A stretch of 36,085 nucleotides of DNA from a virus. Location: positions 1 to 36,085 of IMG/VR virus record IMGVR_UViG_3300035698_006405; one strand, written 5' to 3'. Every line of letters starts with the position of its first letter. Position 1 is the first letter of the stretch. Shown here piece after piece: positions 12,382 through 36,085 of this stretch. Position numbers and translations under genes: made by a program. Under the pieces are notes generated by a model. That model worked only from the letters and a program-made list of their open reading frames with translations, was not told where the DNA came from and made no database searches.

Positions 12382-15378
12382 TTAGTCAAAGTCGAAGTCA
12401 ATAATTTTTAATATGCCACGGAGTATAGTAACCCTGTTTTTCCCGCCGATCTCGTTGTTGTAAAGTTCTTCAAGCTCTTCCTTGCTAACGTCACCCATGT
12501 TCACAAAGTCAAGTATTTCGGATACCTTGTATTCGTGTGGTGATTGGATATAGCTTTTCTTTTGTCCTTCTGACGTATTGAGTTCGTTTTCTCCGTCAAG
12601 TTCTTCTACGAGTTCTTCTTCATCCACGGTTTCTGCTGCGACCTTGTTAAATGTTCTTTCTATGAACTCGGCGGCTGCTTTTGTCGCCTCTGCTGAAGCC
12701 TCGGCAGCAAAGTCATTAGCGGCCTTCATTTGATCTTTCCATGAGACAGTTTCTACCACAGCGCGCCTTGGGGTTTTGGTGGAAATTGTAGACCCGGTTT
12801 TTACAGGAGCGAGAGACTTGAACAGGGACTTTGACACAAAATCTGCCGCGTCTTGCGGGTGAACATTAATGATTCTTCCATTGTTGGTTCTATATCTTGT
12901 TCTTGTTACTGGTCCGATAAACGTGACTTCATTTTTGTTTCCGGCATTTCTACCAATATATTCCATGGTCACAAGCTCACTTGATGACGCGTCCTGAATA
13001 TCCACTCTGTTACCTCCACATGATTTACAAGCCATTTTTAAATCCCCCAAATTATATGCGTCGTGCAGTCTTTTTACATCAGCAATCTTCATATCTCTTG
13101 ATTGCTCTTGACTCGTTGCTATTTTTCTATATTCCCTTCTATATCCGAGTTGTTGTCTATAAGTGAAAAGCGGCAATGGTAATCTCCCACCGCAATGTCC
13201 GTGCGCTGCAAGCCTTAGATGAAAATCCCAATCTTCTCTGTTGTTTTCTTCATCAAACCCACCAACATCCATAAACATATTTCTTGTGTATAGACATGTA
13301 ACAGCCATAATACCGTGTCTCCACAGCTTGTCAATGTCCCATTCATGGCACTCGAACTTTTCTACACCACCCTCTGTCTGCGTGAATATATCTGTGTACA
13401 CCCAATCAAGATTGAAACGCTCTCGCGCCTTCCTAGTTAGCTCTAAGAATCTTGGTTGAAGATAATCATCCGCATCAAGAAACACAAGATATTCACCAGT
13501 GGAGTTTCTTACACCAACGTTGCGCGCATATCCAGCACCCCGCTTATCCATTGCTTGAATAAACTTAACATGAGGATATGCAAATATAAGTCTGTCGATT
13601 GTATCACTAAGAGCAAGCAGCTCTTTTCTTATGTTAAATACAACAACGCACTCCCATCTCTTATCAGACTGAGCCTCAACACTATCCAGCGCATCTTCAA
13701 GGTATATTTCATGGCCTGGACCAACAGGAATAATAATGCTATAAACCGGCTGGTCGTATTCGGTTACGGCCTTTACATCTTTGTCTCCAAGACATGAGAA
13801 CGGCAACCATCCAGTAGTAATGTCTGTGTGCCACGATAAATAATCAGGTTCCTTATAGTCCTTACTGGTTCCACCACCAAGGTGATAGATGAACAACGGC
13901 TCTTCTGTCACAAGCTTAGCTCTATATCCATGTTTCGTAAACCTAAGCCAAAATTCGGCATCTTCTGCTCCGTACCCCTTTGGACAATAGCGCTGCTTAT
14001 ATCCACCAAGCTTTTGCCAATCTTCCTTTAAGAACACACAGCATGTCGGTACCTGATTGTGGCCTTTGAGCATTTCGTTTGCGTCAAACTCTCCAGGCCA
14101 CTTACTAATGCTTCTGTTTCCGTTTTTGAACACAAGGGTTATTTTAGAGTACGCAAGTCTTATACCTTTGTCTTTCTCAAGAGCGCTAACCATTGTGTCA
14201 ATAAACCCTGGTGCAATTTCGTCGTCGGCGTCAAGGCAGCAGATATACTTTGATGACGCGTGGCTTATCCCTGTGTTCCTTGCGCTTGCCACACCACCGT
14301 TAGACTGCCTAATGTACCCAATCCGGCTATCATGCTGCATAAGCTGCCTGGCAACGTCAGGCGTGTCATCTGTTGACCCATCGTCAACTATAATGATTTC
14401 CTTAACGGTATCGCTTGTTTGCTCACACGCAGATTGAACGGCATTTTGAAGTTCGGCAGCATAGTTATAGCATGGAATGATAATACTCGTTGTTACAGGT
14501 TCGTTTTTCTCTTCTATAACGCTTTTGTACAAATCTCGCAATTTAGACACAGCGTTTAGCCAAGAGAAATCCAACGCTCTTTGTGACGCGTTGTATCCGA
14601 ACTCGTCTCTGTTTTTCATTACAATATCAAACGCGTCTATAAGAGCGGGTTCGTCGCCTGGGCCAACGAGTATTCCGTCAACCCCGCTTCTAACTATGTC
14701 AGCAGCACCACCCCAATTATATCCAATAATTGGTATTCCAGCCGCCATACACTGTAGGATACTAATTCCAAACGTCTCTTTGGTCGTTGCTATGTAGATA
14801 TGAGCGCCAAGCGTAATAGATCTCATTTTGTCAAATGATATAAGGCCAGTCTCATGTATATTTCTTGGTGACGAATCTTCTGCGAAGGTAGTAACAAACG
14901 GAACCGATCTAAACGCTCTTGCCAGCACATTAACAGAATGTGGATCACAGATGTTTGACTTTCTGCTTTTGTCCCACAAAGCATAGCCTTTGCTCTCTGC
15001 TCCCTGCCACTCGTCAGCGTTTACACCATGGCCAACCACAGCGGGATCTATACGCATGTCTCTTCTAAAGTATTGAGCAACGTAGTTTGATGGAACAACT
15101 ACTCTTCTTGCTCTACGCACACTTTCAACGATCAGTTGGTTCTGATCTTGTTTGTTAGAATTTAATGGGCCAATCCATAATCCATGATTGTGATGCACAT
15201 CTGCATTAACGTCATAACCAAGATGTGACACCGATATGTCATATGAAGAGCCTTCTTTAACAAGCTCAACTCCAACTTCAGGAAAGTGTCTTTTGTAGTT
15301 AAGAAGAACTTGACCAACGCCATTATTAACGCCGACTTCCTCATGTGTGGGTTGCATTAAAACTTTTATGTTTGACAA
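12382..15378 (-). CDS. Three-domain glycosyltransferase (GT4 plus two GT2) with C-terminal extension
   Basis: A 998-residue fusion. Residues 1 to about 280 resemble a GT4-type enzyme (VGNNGVGQV-like start, then ETFGISILQCMAAGIPIIGYN with the family's E-x7-E-like donor region). Two GT2 domains follow: the first has SIIIPCYN, IIIVDDGSTDDT and CLDADDE (DxD), and the second SIIIPVG, YARNVG and VFLDADDY. After about residue 770 there is CKSCGG, then a GPVTRTRYR segment and an acidic, coiled-coil-like tail. The start is a TTG with GAGAGAGAG upstream. The gene lies inside the virion gene block. It may glycosylate virion protein or host surface; the substrate is unknown. Confidence 0.85.
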   Translation of the reverse strand: MSNIKVLMQPTHEEVGVNNGVGQVLLNYKRHFPEVGVELVKEGSSYDISVSHLGYDVNADVHHNHGLWIGPLNSNKQDQNQLIVESVRRARRVVVPSNYVAQYFRRDMRIDPAVVGHGVNADEWQGAESKGYALWDKSRKSNICDPHSVNVLARAFRSVPFVTTFAEDSSPRNIHETGLISFDKMRSITLGAHIYIATTKETFGISILQCMAAGIPIIGYNWGGAADIVRSGVDGILVGPGDEPALIDAFDIVMKNRDEFGYNASQRALDFSWLNAVSKLRDLYKSVIEEKNEPVTTSIIIPCYNYAAELQNAVQSACEQTSDTVKEIIIVDDGSTDDTPDVARQLMQHDSRIGYIRQSNGGVASARNTGISHASSKYICCLDADDEIAPGFIDTMVSALEKDKGIRLAYSKITLVFKNGNRSISKWPGEFDANEMLKGHNQVPTCCVFLKEDWQKLGGYKQRYCPKGYGAEDAEFWLRFTKHGYRAKLVTEEPLFIYHLGGGTSKDYKEPDYLSWHTDITTGWLPFSCLGDKDVKAVTEYDQPVYSIIIPVGPGHEIYLEDALDSVEAQSDKRWECVVVFNIRKELLALSDTIDRLIFAYPHVKFIQAMDKRGAGYARNVGVRNSTGEYLVFLDADDYLQPRFLELTRKARERFNLDWVYTDIFTQTEGGVEKFECHEWDIDKLWRHGIMAVTCLYTRNMFMDVGGFDEENNREDWDFHLRLAAHGHCGGRLPLPLFTYRQQLGYRREYRKIATSQEQSRDMKIADVKRLHDAYNLGDLKMACKSCGGNRVDIQDASSSELVTMEYIGRNAGNKNEVTFIGPVTRTRYRTNNGRIINVHPQDAADFVSKSLFKSLAPVKTGSTISTKTPRRAVVETVSWKDQMKAANDFAAEASAEATKAAAEFIERTFNKVAAETVDEEELVEELDGENELNTSEGQKKSYIQSPHEYKVSEILDFVNMGDVSKEELEELYNNEIGGKNRVTILRGILKIIDFDFD

Positions 15379-26890: not shown

Positions 26891-28093
26891 CTATACTCTT
26901 ATTATACGTGACGACTCTCTCCGTTTTAGTGGAGAGCTTCTCAGGCTACGCACAGTCCCATGACTCACGTTAACGCCTGATGGCTCCGTCCGAGCCAGCT
27001 TAAGAATATTAATTGCAGCATTAACATCTCTATCTAGAATTAGACCACAATAAGGACAATTATGAACACGAACGCTCAGGTCTTTAGGCACAATCTCTCC
27101 GCATCCAGAGCACATTTGCGATGTGTAGGCAGGGGGTACGGCGACAACTTGAGAGACAGTATTTTCGACTTTGCTCTCCAGCATCTGCCGGAACATTCCC
27201 AAACCAGCGTCGTGCGCGCTCAAGGCGAGATGATGATTGTGGGTCATAAAGATGAGATTTAGATCTTCAATCGCAATCAACGTATAGGTGTCTGCGAGCT
27301 TGCGCGTTTCCTTATGCCAAAAGTCACGCCGTTGGTTAGTAATGTGGCTATGTTGTTTTGCGACTTGAAAGATTGCTTTTCTCCTACGACCAGAACCCCT
27401 CTTACGCCGAGAGATTCGACGTTGTTTAACGCGTAGCTCCTTGAGCGATTTCCTGAGCCAGCGGGGGTTATCAACAAATGTTCCATCAGAGAGCGCCAGA
27501 AGATTATGCAATCCAACGTCAACGCCAACCTCAGACGGTAATCGATCAACGATCTCTTTATCAGGCATCTCTATCTGCAAGCAAACATACCACCTATCGA
27601 GACTGCGTTTAATTATGACATGCTTAATCCTGGCGTCGTCGGGAATATCCCGATGATACTTTACTTTGATCTCACCAACGCTTTGTACGTAAAGCAATGT
27701 GCGTCCAGTACCACCCAACCTTAATTTACAGCCATTGCCATACGTGAACTCGATACTATGCCAGCGGCTAGCGCTCTTGAAACGCGGAAATCCAGCCTTC
27801 TCTCCGGCCTTGACTCGACGGAAGAATGCGCGATACGCTTTGTCAAGACGTCTAAGTGTCTGTTGCATACAGGTGAAGTTTAGTGTTCCTAGTCTGTCTG
27901 GATCTGCGCGTCGAAGGTCTCCGAAGCGCTTGCACTGTGCGGCATAAGTCACGCCATAACCATTCTCTCTGTAAGCTACAATTCGTTGTTCGAGTGCCGC
28001 ATTGTACACGTCACGCGATAAACTGAGAAGGTAATTCAACCCCCTTGATTGGCGAGCGTGTGGGTATAAACGGTACTTGTAGGTGCGGATCAT
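26891..28093 (-). CDS. tnpB: TnpB, second, distinct element
   Basis: A 400-residue TnpB with intact motifs: EVGVDVGLHN (D about 192), IAIEDLNLI (E about 276) and DRDVNAAINIL (about 354-364). The zinc motif is CSGCG...CPYCG. It differs in sequence from the first TnpB, so it comes from another subfamily or an older event. It is preceded by a 48-residue ribbon-helix-helix gene whose stop overlaps its ATG (ATGA), so both are one operon. The last residues run through the right-end hairpin, so the coding sequence overlaps the omega-RNA end. No TnpA is seen. Base use is more G+C rich than the neighbours. Confidence 0.93.
   Translation of the reverse strand: MIRTYKYRLYPHARQSRGLNYLLSLSRDVYNAALEQRIVAYRENGYGVTYAAQCKRFGDLRRADPDRLGTLNFTCMQQTLRRLDKAYRAFFRRVKAGEKAGFPRFKSASRWHSIEFTYGNGCKLRLGGTGRTLLYVQSVGEIKVKYHRDIPDDARIKHVIIKRSLDRWYVCLQIEMPDKEIVDRLPSEVGVDVGLHNLLALSDGTFVDNPRWLRKSLKELRVKQRRISRRKRGSGRRRKAIFQVAKQHSHITNQRRDFWHKETRKLADTYTLIAIEDLNLIFMTHNHHLALSAHDAGLGMFRQMLESKVENTVSQVVAVPPAYTSQMCSGCGEIVPKDLSVRVHNCPYCGLILDRDVNAAINILKLARTEPSGVNVSHGTVRSLRSSPLKRRESSRIIRV
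26910..26945 (-). ncRNA. 3' end of omega-RNA of the second TnpB element
   Basis: On the minus strand a hairpin CTCTCC/GGAGAG with an 8-nt loop (26917-26936) ends with GTCGTCAC, in the style of IS605-type right ends. The guide would begin in the flank just below 26910. The 5' end lies within tnpB and is undetermined. Confidence 0.6.
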
Positions 28094-28236
28094 TCGATGT
28101 CTTCGCGTTTAGCAAGCGCTCGAATAGCCAGCTCTAAGACGGCGGTTAGACTGACGCCTAGCTTGCTTGACAAGAGATAGCGCAGCCGAACTGCCTCATT
28201 TGTGAGTCGGACGCTAGTCTGTTTTTTAGTGATCAT
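28090..28236 (-). CDS. Ribbon-helix-helix repressor-like protein upstream of TnpB
   Basis: A 48-residue frame (MITKKQTSVRLTNEAVRLRY..., ending AKREDIE) with the layout of ribbon-helix-helix DNA-binding proteins: a short strand (TSVRLT) followed by two helices. The stop overlaps the TnpB start by 4 nt. Its promoter holds a 17-nt palindrome, TAACACAAACTGTGTTA, between -35 and -10, so autoregulation is likely. The start is 6 nt past the -10 box. It would control TnpB expression. The frame is short and rests on coupling, promoter, palindrome and fold-like pattern. Confidence 0.7.
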   Translation of the reverse strand: MITKKQTSVRLTNEAVRLRYLLSSKLGVSLTAVLELAIRALAKREDIE

Positions 28237-33426: not shown

Positions 33427-33527
33427 AGCGCGCGCAGCCGCGCGACCCGCGCGCGTAGACTACGCGAAATCAGCCATTGAATAAACAAGACCGATATGCG
33501 AGATATTCGACTTTTGGAATTTGGTAC

Positions 33528-34302: not shown

Positions 34303-34491
34303 CTTGCAGCCGATCCGCGATGCCACACTATGACTACGCGAAATGAAGACCGTATGATTAGAAATACAGCCGTCTGGTTAATTGCCGTTTCTGCAAGTTT
34401 TCATTGCAAACTTTGAAATTTCTGCAGCGCTGAAACTGGCGTTCTCTAAAAGCAGCCGTCAAGTGTACGCTGAAATAGCCGTTTGGGAGAA

Positions 34492-34572
34492 TTCCCCACT
34501 TTGACCCTGAAAACAGCTCAAAATAGGGTGGGTTCCCCACTTTGACCCTGAAAACAGCTCAAAATAGGGTGG
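34492..34572. repeat. 41-bp tandem direct repeat, two copies
   Basis: Units at 34492-34532 and 34533-34572 share at least 40 nt. Each contains ACCCT...AGGGT arms that can form a hairpin. Confidence 0.85.
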
Positions 34573-34730: not shown

Positions 34731-34974
34731 GATGGCGACAGACCCAGCTCTGCAAGAAAAACTTGCAATCCAACAAATCGCTGCAAAGAAAGAATCAGCT
34801 AGAGGTCGCCGTCTGCCGCTGCAAGAAAACATGACCGAACGGTTCGGTCGCTCTCATTTTATCTTGCGCTTCCATGGTAGTGCGAAAAACGCGCATGAGC
34901 GCGCATGTACGCGTAGACTACGCGAAATGAGGACAACCATCTGACTAATTATTTCTAACCGTATTCAAACAGTC

Positions 34975-35059
34975 TTGTCAATAGTACTTTAGTACTATAT
35001 AGAACATTTGCGCCTAGTACTAATTTCCTATTGCGTCTGGGTTGACCGTATGATAGAAT
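34975..35059 (+). promoter_or_regulatory. Operator-promoter block, copy 1 (tandem promoters)
   Basis: First promoter: TTGTCA (34975-34980), a 17-nt spacer holding TAGTACTTTAGTACTA (34982-34997), TATAGA (34998-35003). Second promoter: TTGCGT (35031-35036), 17-nt spacer, TAGAAT (35054-35059). The second operator, which in copies 2 and 3 abuts the -35 box, has decayed here. Confidence 0.75.
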
Positions 35060-35092
35060 TGGATTAAGTTTAACTAGCACAAAGGAGCAGAA

Positions 35093-35434
35093 ATGGACGA
35101 GACCACGGCAGAATTCGCGATTAAGACCGTCATCCGGGGAGATCACGTAGAATGCGAGGTAGACACGCGAACACAAAAAGATCGCGGGTTCATCGAGACC
35201 TCAATCTTTTTTGCAGACGAGGACATGGTTGTTTTTTCAGACTCTGTAGAACCTGAAAGCGCACTCTGCGACCACCGGCGAGCCGTCAGAGCTGCAAGAC
35301 TAGCTGTTAGCCGGTTCGATGAAATCGCGAATGAGGAGTACAGCCGTCTGCTCAATACCTTATGCAAGGTGACAACCTGCGCAATGGTCGGGATCGAAGC
35401 TGACAAGCGCGAATGGCACGAGAAGCCATTCTAG
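35093..35434 (+). CDS. Small protein of unknown function, cassette gene
   Basis: A 113-residue, slightly acidic protein (MDETTAEFAIKTVIRGDHVECEV). AAAGGAG and AACTAGCA precede the ATG. No family is recognised. It sits between an operator-promoter block and a strong terminator, as a single-gene unit. Confidence 0.7.
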   Translation: MDETTAEFAIKTVIRGDHVECEVDTRTQKDRGFIETSIFFADEDMVVFSDSVEPESALCDHRRAVRAARLAVSRFDEIANEEYSRLLNTLCKVTTCAMVGIEADKREWHEKPF

Positions 35435-35446
35435 CAACACAAAATG

Positions 35447-35473
35447 AGACCGGCAGAAATGCCGGTCTTTTTT
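35447..35473 (+). terminator. Intrinsic terminator after the 35093 gene
   Basis: A 9-bp perfect stem AGACCGGCA with a GAAA tetraloop, then a T run. Confidence 0.9.
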
Positions 35474-35485
35474 CTTGCGTTGACT

Positions 35486-35598
35486 TTGCAATTTCTTATG
35501 TATGACTACGCGAAATGAACACGTCCATCTACTTTAATATTGTCAATAGTACTTTAGTACTATATAGAACATTTGCGCCTAGTACTAAAGTACTATTG
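35486..35598. repeat. 113-bp repeat block, copy 2
   Basis: As read by eye, identical to 35973-36085, which is cut by the window edge. It spans the box at 35504-35518, the first promoter-operator and the second operator. The offset between the copies is 487 nt. Confidence 0.9.
35504..35518 (+). promoter_or_regulatory. One-way box GACTACGCGAAATGA (one of five)
   Basis: Same-strand copies lie at 33458-33472 (last bases CA), 34332-34346, 34916-34930, here and 35991-36005. A partial reverse copy lies at 33341-33351. They lie between cassettes or at their borders. Confidence 0.75.
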
Positions 35599-35624
35599 CG
35601 TCTGGGTGAGCTGCATGGTACAAT
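35540..35624 (+). promoter_or_regulatory. Operator-promoter block, copy 2
   Basis: First promoter: TTGTCA (35540-35545), operator TAGTACTTTAGTACTA (35547-35562), TATAGA (35563-35568). The second operator TAGTACTAAAGTACTA (35580-35595) abuts TTGCGT (35596-35601), then 17 nt and TACAAT (35619-35624). Confidence 0.8.
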
Positions 35625-35657
35625 TGGATTAAGTTTAACTAGCATCAAGGAGGCGAG

Positions 35658-35921
35658 ATGACCACCATAACGACCCTGAAGCAGCAGTACATGGCGACCT
35701 TAGTCCAGGAGTTGGCTATCTTCACGTTGGACATGCATGTGGTGCAAGCATCGCGGCACTTCGATGTTTTCAGTGGAGTTTTCCGTGGAGTCGAGTTCGA
35801 GATGTCATTTTATGATGGCAAGATCGGCTGGATTGAACCAGATCTTGACAAGATCGCTCCGCACGACGTGGAGGCATGGTACACCGATCTCGACACAATA
35901 TGCGGCATCGATAGCGCATAG
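35658..35921 (+). CDS. Small protein of unknown function, cassette gene
   Basis: An 87-residue protein (MTTITTLKQQYMATLVQEL start) with a beta-rich middle (HFDVFSGVFRGVEFEMSFYDGKIGW). AAGGAGG and AACTAGCA precede the ATG. No family is recognised. It is a single-gene unit with the same upstream block as the previous cassette. Confidence 0.7.
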   Translation: MTTITTLKQQYMATLVQELAIFTLDMHVVQASRHFDVFSGVFRGVEFEMSFYDGKIGWIEPDLDKIAPHDVEAWYTDLDTICGIDSA

Positions 35922-35934
35922 CAACATAAATTGC

Positions 35935-35958
35935 AAGGCCACCGCAAGGTGGCCTTTT
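35935..35958 (+). terminator. Intrinsic terminator after the 35658 gene
   Basis: A perfect 9-bp stem AAGGCCACC with a GCAA tetraloop, then a short T run. Confidence 0.85.
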
Positions 35959-35972
35959 CTCTTTCCGCGATC

Positions 35973-36085
35973 TTGCAATTTCTTATGTATGACTACGCGA
36001 AATGAACACGTCCATCTACTTTAATATTGTCAATAGTACTTTAGTACTATATAGAACATTTGCGCCTAGTACTAAAGTACTATTG
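35973..36085. repeat. 113-bp repeat block, copy 3, cut by the window edge
   Basis: As read by eye, identical to 35486-35598 over its whole visible length. It holds the one-way box (35991-36005), TTGTCA (36027-36032), operator 1 (36034-36049) and operator 2 (36067-36082). A further cassette gene is expected just beyond the right edge. Confidence 0.9.

Follow-up and report, generated by a model that had tools for sequence, protein, structure and literature searches.

What controls the small genes that a tailed phage carries in tandem, each behind a near-identical promoter block? The question arises from the end of IMGVR_UViG_3300035698_006405, an IMG/VR record that we analysed at its full length of 36,085 bases (the window). 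A tape measure gene and tail genes identify the window as phage DNA, with a siphovirus-like tail module, an adenosylcobalamin-type RNR and, by eye, two TnpB-like genes; the record is a tailed-phage fragment and its genome is partial. An earlier note on this DNA had proposed that one repressor silences all of the small genes, in the manner of prophage immunity.

The array comprises three blocks (Table 1). As the earlier note had described, a 16-nt operator, TAGTACTTTAGTACTA (O1), lies exactly inside the 17-nt spacer of a putative promoter, P1, which in each of the three blocks reads TTGTCA-17-TATAGA. The operator has 7-nt arms around TT (TAGTACT-TT-AGTACTA) and forms a perfect inverted repeat, so the 'reverse complement' copy that forms a second operator, O2, differs from O1 only in the central TT/AA. 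That O2 abuts the −35 box of a second putative promoter, P2, in both complete blocks holds for block 2, where the site is intact, but not fully for block 1, where the sequence has decayed to TAGTACTAatttccta and retains a half-site only. The centres of O1 and O2 are 33 bp apart, around three helix turns, placing them on the same helix face. Allowing up to three mismatches, TAGTACTTTAGTACTA matches the window 11 times compared with 0.38 expected, a count attained in none of 100 shuffles, and every match falls within the last 1.1 kb, as do 17 of the 18 occurrences of TAGTACT (3.8 expected).

Table 1. Coordinates of the cassette array at the end of the window; promoter assignments are putative.
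Feature	Position	Strand	Details
GACTACGCGAAATGA element before block 1	34916..34930	+	further copies at 33458 (ends CA), 34332, 35504 and 35991
Block 1 P1	34975..35003	+	−35 TTGTCA 34975-34980; 17-nt spacer with O1 34982-34997; −10 TATAGA 34998-35003
Block 1 degenerate O2	35015..35030	+	half-site TAGTACTA kept, other half lost; 3 mismatches
Block 1 P2	35031..35059	+	TTGCGT-17-TAGAAT; TGA before −10
Small gene D	35093..35434	+	113 aa; ORFan
Intrinsic terminator of gene D	35446..35469	+	GAAA tetraloop, T run; −18.5 kcal/mol, fold z −4.8
113-nt stretch	35486..35598	+	identical to 35973-36085 (blocks 2 and 3)
Block 2 P1	35540..35568	+	O1 35547-35562 in spacer
Block 2 O2	35580..35595	+	intact
Block 2 P2	35596..35624	+	TTGCGT-17-TACAAT; TGG before −10; −35 abuts O2
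Small gene E	35658..35921	+	87 aa; ORFan
Intrinsic terminator of gene E	35935..35956	+	GCAA tetraloop; −17.4 kcal/mol, fold z −4.9
Block 3	36027..36085	+	P1 with O1 36034-36049; O2 36067-36082; contig stops inside block

Between blocks 1 and 2, 106 of 121 nucleotides match and the first 49 are unchanged. The 15 differences comprise three in O2, six in the P2 spacer, one in the P2 −10 box and five around the ribosome site; thus, the −35 box of P2 is conserved whereas its spacer is divergent. In both blocks a TGN precedes the P2 −10 box and may compensate for the weak −35. A simple sigma70 consensus scan passed neither P1 nor P2 and returned a chance-level count of matches (6 versus 4.4); because the scan does not single out these promoters, their assignment rests on the conservation of the blocks. 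Over 113 nt, block 3 repeats block 2 without a single difference, as the earlier note had reported, and because this identity includes non-functional flank, we take the duplication to be recent. The third block does run off the edge: the record ends at 36085, 3 nt past O2, so any P2 of block 3 is not visible. Short-read assemblies typically break at repeats, as this contig does.

Each complete block is followed by one short, unrecognized gene and a tetraloop terminator, again in agreement with the earlier note; both terminators are strong and carry GNRA tetraloops. Searches of PDB, Pfam, PHROGs and PADLOC yielded nothing significant on the function of either gene. For gene D, AlphaFold2 gave a fold too uncertain for structure search (pLDDT 45), and the predicted helix–four strands–helix fold of gene E (pLDDT 70) had no significant match in the PDB. 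The two genes are unrelated to each other and are separated by near-identical terminator–promoter stretches, the arrangement by which PeSL cassettes are recognized. Such promoter–terminator cassettes of T4-like phages, as far as they are presented where they are named in PMC4503421, likewise have unrelated small genes between near-identical, potentially recombining stretches.

This likeness raises the possibility that the repeats are simply PeSL-like recombination boundaries or the product of recent duplication, and that the palindromes are hairpins or terminators and not regulator sites. The perfect identity over 113 nt, flanks included, fits such an origin, as do the good folding of O1 and O2, which with their 3-nt flanks form a 19-bp inverted repeat, and the terminator-like T run that follows several IMG/VR copies of the 16-mer. 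However, the palindromes in the window are not followed by a T run, the real terminators are located elsewhere, and O1 occupies the promoter spacer in all three blocks. A role as boundaries would, moreover, be compatible with a regulatory one, and we consider a purely structural origin of the palindromes very improbable.

If the palindromes are operators, their sequence points to LexA. All five intact copies fit RGTACNNNDGTWCB on both strands, with 11 strand-hits in the window compared with 0.26 in shuffles; this is the consensus of the cyanobacterial (Nostoc) LexA box, a correspondence that does not identify the host. They also nearly fit the wider cyanobacterial LexA consensus, AGTACWNWTGTACT; both consensuses are published (PMC3091678). 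The window operators share sequence class and length with the cyanobacterial boxes but differ at position 9 of the 14-mer, which is A in the window and mostly T in the published sites. Scored with a cyanobacterial matrix, the best operator reached 15.3 bits, which is less than the training median (16.4) and falls in the range of random maxima (mean 13.2, up to 18.1); the score of a single site is unexceptional, and it is the repetition of the site that is exceptional. The block contains no LexA motif of the E. coli or Bacillus type, and HIP1 (GCGATCGC), which would point indirectly to a cyanobacterial host, is absent. The RNRs nearest to that of the window, from Streptomyces and Roseobacter phages, are only about 40% identical, and IMG/VR searches with the RNR, capsid-candidate, gene D and glycosyltransferase proteins found no close relative. 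An assignment of the host from the TnpB and tail proteins was dropped, as their matches were distant only (Thermus plasmids, 44%; a Methanoculleus virus, 27%; Paenibacillus phages, 24%).

We scanned 84,980 genomes (species) for TAGTACN4GTACTA within the spacer of a TTGACA/TANNNT promoter, without use of gene function, and obtained only seven matches. Three lie at LexA- or SOS-type genes: a Microgenomates match has a LexA-like S24 gene and then a Y-family polymerase gene downstream, an Elusimicrobia match (L190) precedes a LexA_DNA_bind N-terminus, and a Wirthbacteria match precedes a Y-family polymerase gene. In the Wirthbacteria genome, TAGTACN4GTACTA has just one further site, which lies before a UmuD-like S24 gene (the reversed-pattern control found none), and GTACN4GTAC also occurs upstream of a LexA-like gene. 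This genome (G003; loci L187, L200 and L234) probably holds a GTAC-type SOS regulon that includes the LexA-like, UmuD-like and Y-family polymerase genes. Another genome (G212) has a single site, TAGTACTATAGTACTA, that deviates from the window operator at one base; it lies before a DUF763 gene in which a helix-hairpin-helix-like stretch was recognized by eye. The earlier note had made its reading depend on the repeat being found before genes elsewhere. The block itself matched no sequence in GTDB genomes, IMG/VR, phages or plasmids, whereas the operator class does precede lexA, UmuD-like and Y-polymerase genes. Exact matches to TAGTACTTTAGTACTA occur in 108 viral stretches, and because many of these look terminator-like or lie in unrelated contexts, the 16-mer has no diagnostic value by itself.

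The 6.0 kb of sequence upstream of 30 Patescibacteria LexA relatives contains four GTACN4GTAC sites, compared with one in 96 kb elsewhere; one of the four (L231) belongs to the Microgenomates locus from which the search had started (L191). The longer motif, TAGTACN4GTACTA, was at chance level overall in 287 Patescibacteria genomes (8 sites versus 11 for the reversed control). Among the 30 best Elusimicrobiota LexA-domain loci, the motif was absent but for a single site, which falls in a LacI-type reading frame, and that locus (L208) was dropped as a LexA match. Most Patescibacteria and Elusimicrobiota genomes therefore do not use TAGTACN4GTACTA. The scan indicates that the range of the GTACN4GTAC LexA operator extends past cyanobacteria to one Elusimicrobia genome and to some Patescibacteria. 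For the latter group, the GTAC-type motif may already have been described in a 2017 study of its SOS network, which is cited in PMC8565304.

The operator class is not exclusive to LexA, because the scan matches also include Cro/CI-type, TetR and HTH_3-adjacent genes. A Cro/CI-type HTH gene of Traorella (L185) bears it in its own promoter, and a further match (L188) is an ORFan with HTH_3 and endolysin-like genes as neighbours. Both would suit a phage immunity repressor (CI-like, S24 or MrpR-like) that is encoded beyond the fragment, keeps the cassettes silent in the prophage and confers superinfection immunity, as would the restriction of identical operators in this record to phage small-gene promoters; SPbeta MrpR operates in this way through its SPBRE elements (PMC10516654). 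However, 36 kb of sequence contains no recognizable S24, LexA, HTH_3, tyrosine-integrase or serine-recombinase gene, albeit in a record that is a fragment, and the operator fits LexA boxes and occurs on lexA-, umuD- and umuC-type genes. An immunity repressor is thus unlikely in our view, though far from negligible. What stands of the earlier proposal is common repression through shared operators, which is the best reading of what is indeed a phage; the immunity repressor has no candidate gene in the fragment. The earlier note had also suggested looking for a phage repressor gene with a TAGTAC operator of its own, and there is none in this 36-kb part of an incomplete genome.

The scan similarly bears on whether another host or phage regulator, responding to a signal other than DNA damage, could read these sites. 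A TetR gene of Sarcina (L189) adjoins two such operators, and the window encodes a 48-aa protein (28090-28236, minus strand), adjoining a TnpB-like gene, that by eye resembles ribbon-helix-helix repressors but has no Pfam match; a protein of this type might read the 8-nt spaced direct repeat TAGTACTT-TAGTACTA. Regulators of either kind are nonetheless improbable, given that three of the seven promoter-spacer matches, and a second site in one of those genomes, lie at LexA/SOS-type genes.

The LexA of the host is favoured as the binder because the operator fits LexA boxes and, in other genomes, lies before lexA, UmuD-like and Y-polymerase genes. We therefore lean, on the strength of sequence comparisons, towards a reading in which host LexA keeps PeSL-like small-gene cassettes silent until the SOS response induces them, and we rate this as somewhat probable. 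Each cassette of the tandem phage array has its own promoter block and terminator, and its repression would act through SOS boxes of the LexA type. A LexA dimer, most likely that of the host, would bind O1 between the −35 and −10 boxes of P1, the classical position for repression, and block RNA polymerase. LexA on O2, just upstream of the −35 box of the extended −10 promoter P2, would block either P2 itself or read-through from P1. DNA damage, or an infection that activates RecA, would then lead to LexA self-cleavage and turn on all cassettes together; block 1 would be expected to be leakier, because its O2 is only a half-site. We infer both the identity of the binder and SOS induction from these sequence features. 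A bolder version, in which the LexA of an uncharacterized host, and not a phage repressor, governs an expandable array of ORFan cassettes with two operators and two promoters each, and in which host-takeover or anti-SOS proteins are deployed only when DNA damage or infection is sensed, is rather doubtful.

To our knowledge, no PeSL carries repressor operators, and the siphovirus-like tail module of the window is a further difference from the T4-like phages. The claim that no described system resembles this arrangement was nevertheless too strong, as several phages show parts of it. In the Bacillus phage SPbeta, SOS (LexA) boxes lie at yolC/yolD, yorB and yopS/yopT (PMC8270828); as in the window, the genes are phage genes mostly of unknown function, with one or two LexA boxes (for host LexA in SPbeta) in their promoters. 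The SPbeta boxes, however, are of the CGAACN4GTTCG type and scattered, whereas those of the window are of the GTACN4GTAC type and stand in near-identical blocks before tandem single genes. At promoter P1 of GIL01, the full box dinBox1 and the half-site dinBox1b cooperate, with the half-site contributing modestly (PMC4551915). Block 1 resembles this promoter in that a half-site lies close to a full LexA box within a single phage promoter region, but GIL01 has a single such promoter and the co-factor gp7, and the window has three blocks and no known gp7. The SPBRE elements of SPbeta, with a 15-bp motif bound by the master repressor MrpR, a phage protein of recombinase fold (PMC10516654), likewise repeat a single element ahead of numerous phage genes without known function, with one repressor for all; the window differs in that no MrpR-type protein was identified in it and its motif is LexA-like.

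Host SOS boxes before phage small genes, one repressor acting at many sites and PeSL cassettes are thus each already known, and what the window adds is their combination. An arrangement in which every cassette has a pair of LexA-type operators and a pair of promoters, repeated as near-identical blocks, was absent from PMC8270828, PMC10516654 and PMC4503421, the last as far as its account of PeSLs goes, and from the collections searched. If the LexA reading is correct, host-LexA control would extend from single phage promoters, as in GIL01 and SPbeta, to a modular small-gene array, and conserved SOS-box blocks would offer a way to find damage-induced phage effectors in unculturable hosts.

The array contains a second repeated element, GACTACGCGAAAT(G/C)A, which the first reading had overlooked. 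It has five copies, one ahead of each cassette, and a motif scan for it returned seven matches compared with 0.35 expected. At 33452 and 34910 the element is preceded by CGCGTA, yielding the palindrome CGCGTAGACTACGCG. It is possibly a second regulatory or recombination element. Nearby, in a stretch without an obvious gene (34485-34566), lie two tandem 41-nt repeats (93%) with GGGTTCCCCACTTTGACCCTGAAAACAGCTCAAAATA.

Several further observations concern other sequences and other parts of the window. A set of related viral contigs (L006, L008, L046, L058, L110 and L076) has TAGTACTTTAGTACTA, a T run and a TTGACA promoter, with the look of a terminator–promoter junction. In 76 IMG/VR stretches (L114-L184), many viral contigs have TAGTACANNTGTACTA in arrays, and palindromes like GAGAATGATTCTC, which resemble Fur boxes, often lie between the copies; these arrays are possibly picocyanobacterial. 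Within the structural gene cluster of the window, at 12382-15378 on the minus strand, lies a gene for a 998-aa protein in which several glycosyltransferase-like domains are followed, by eye, by an unrelated C-terminal region.
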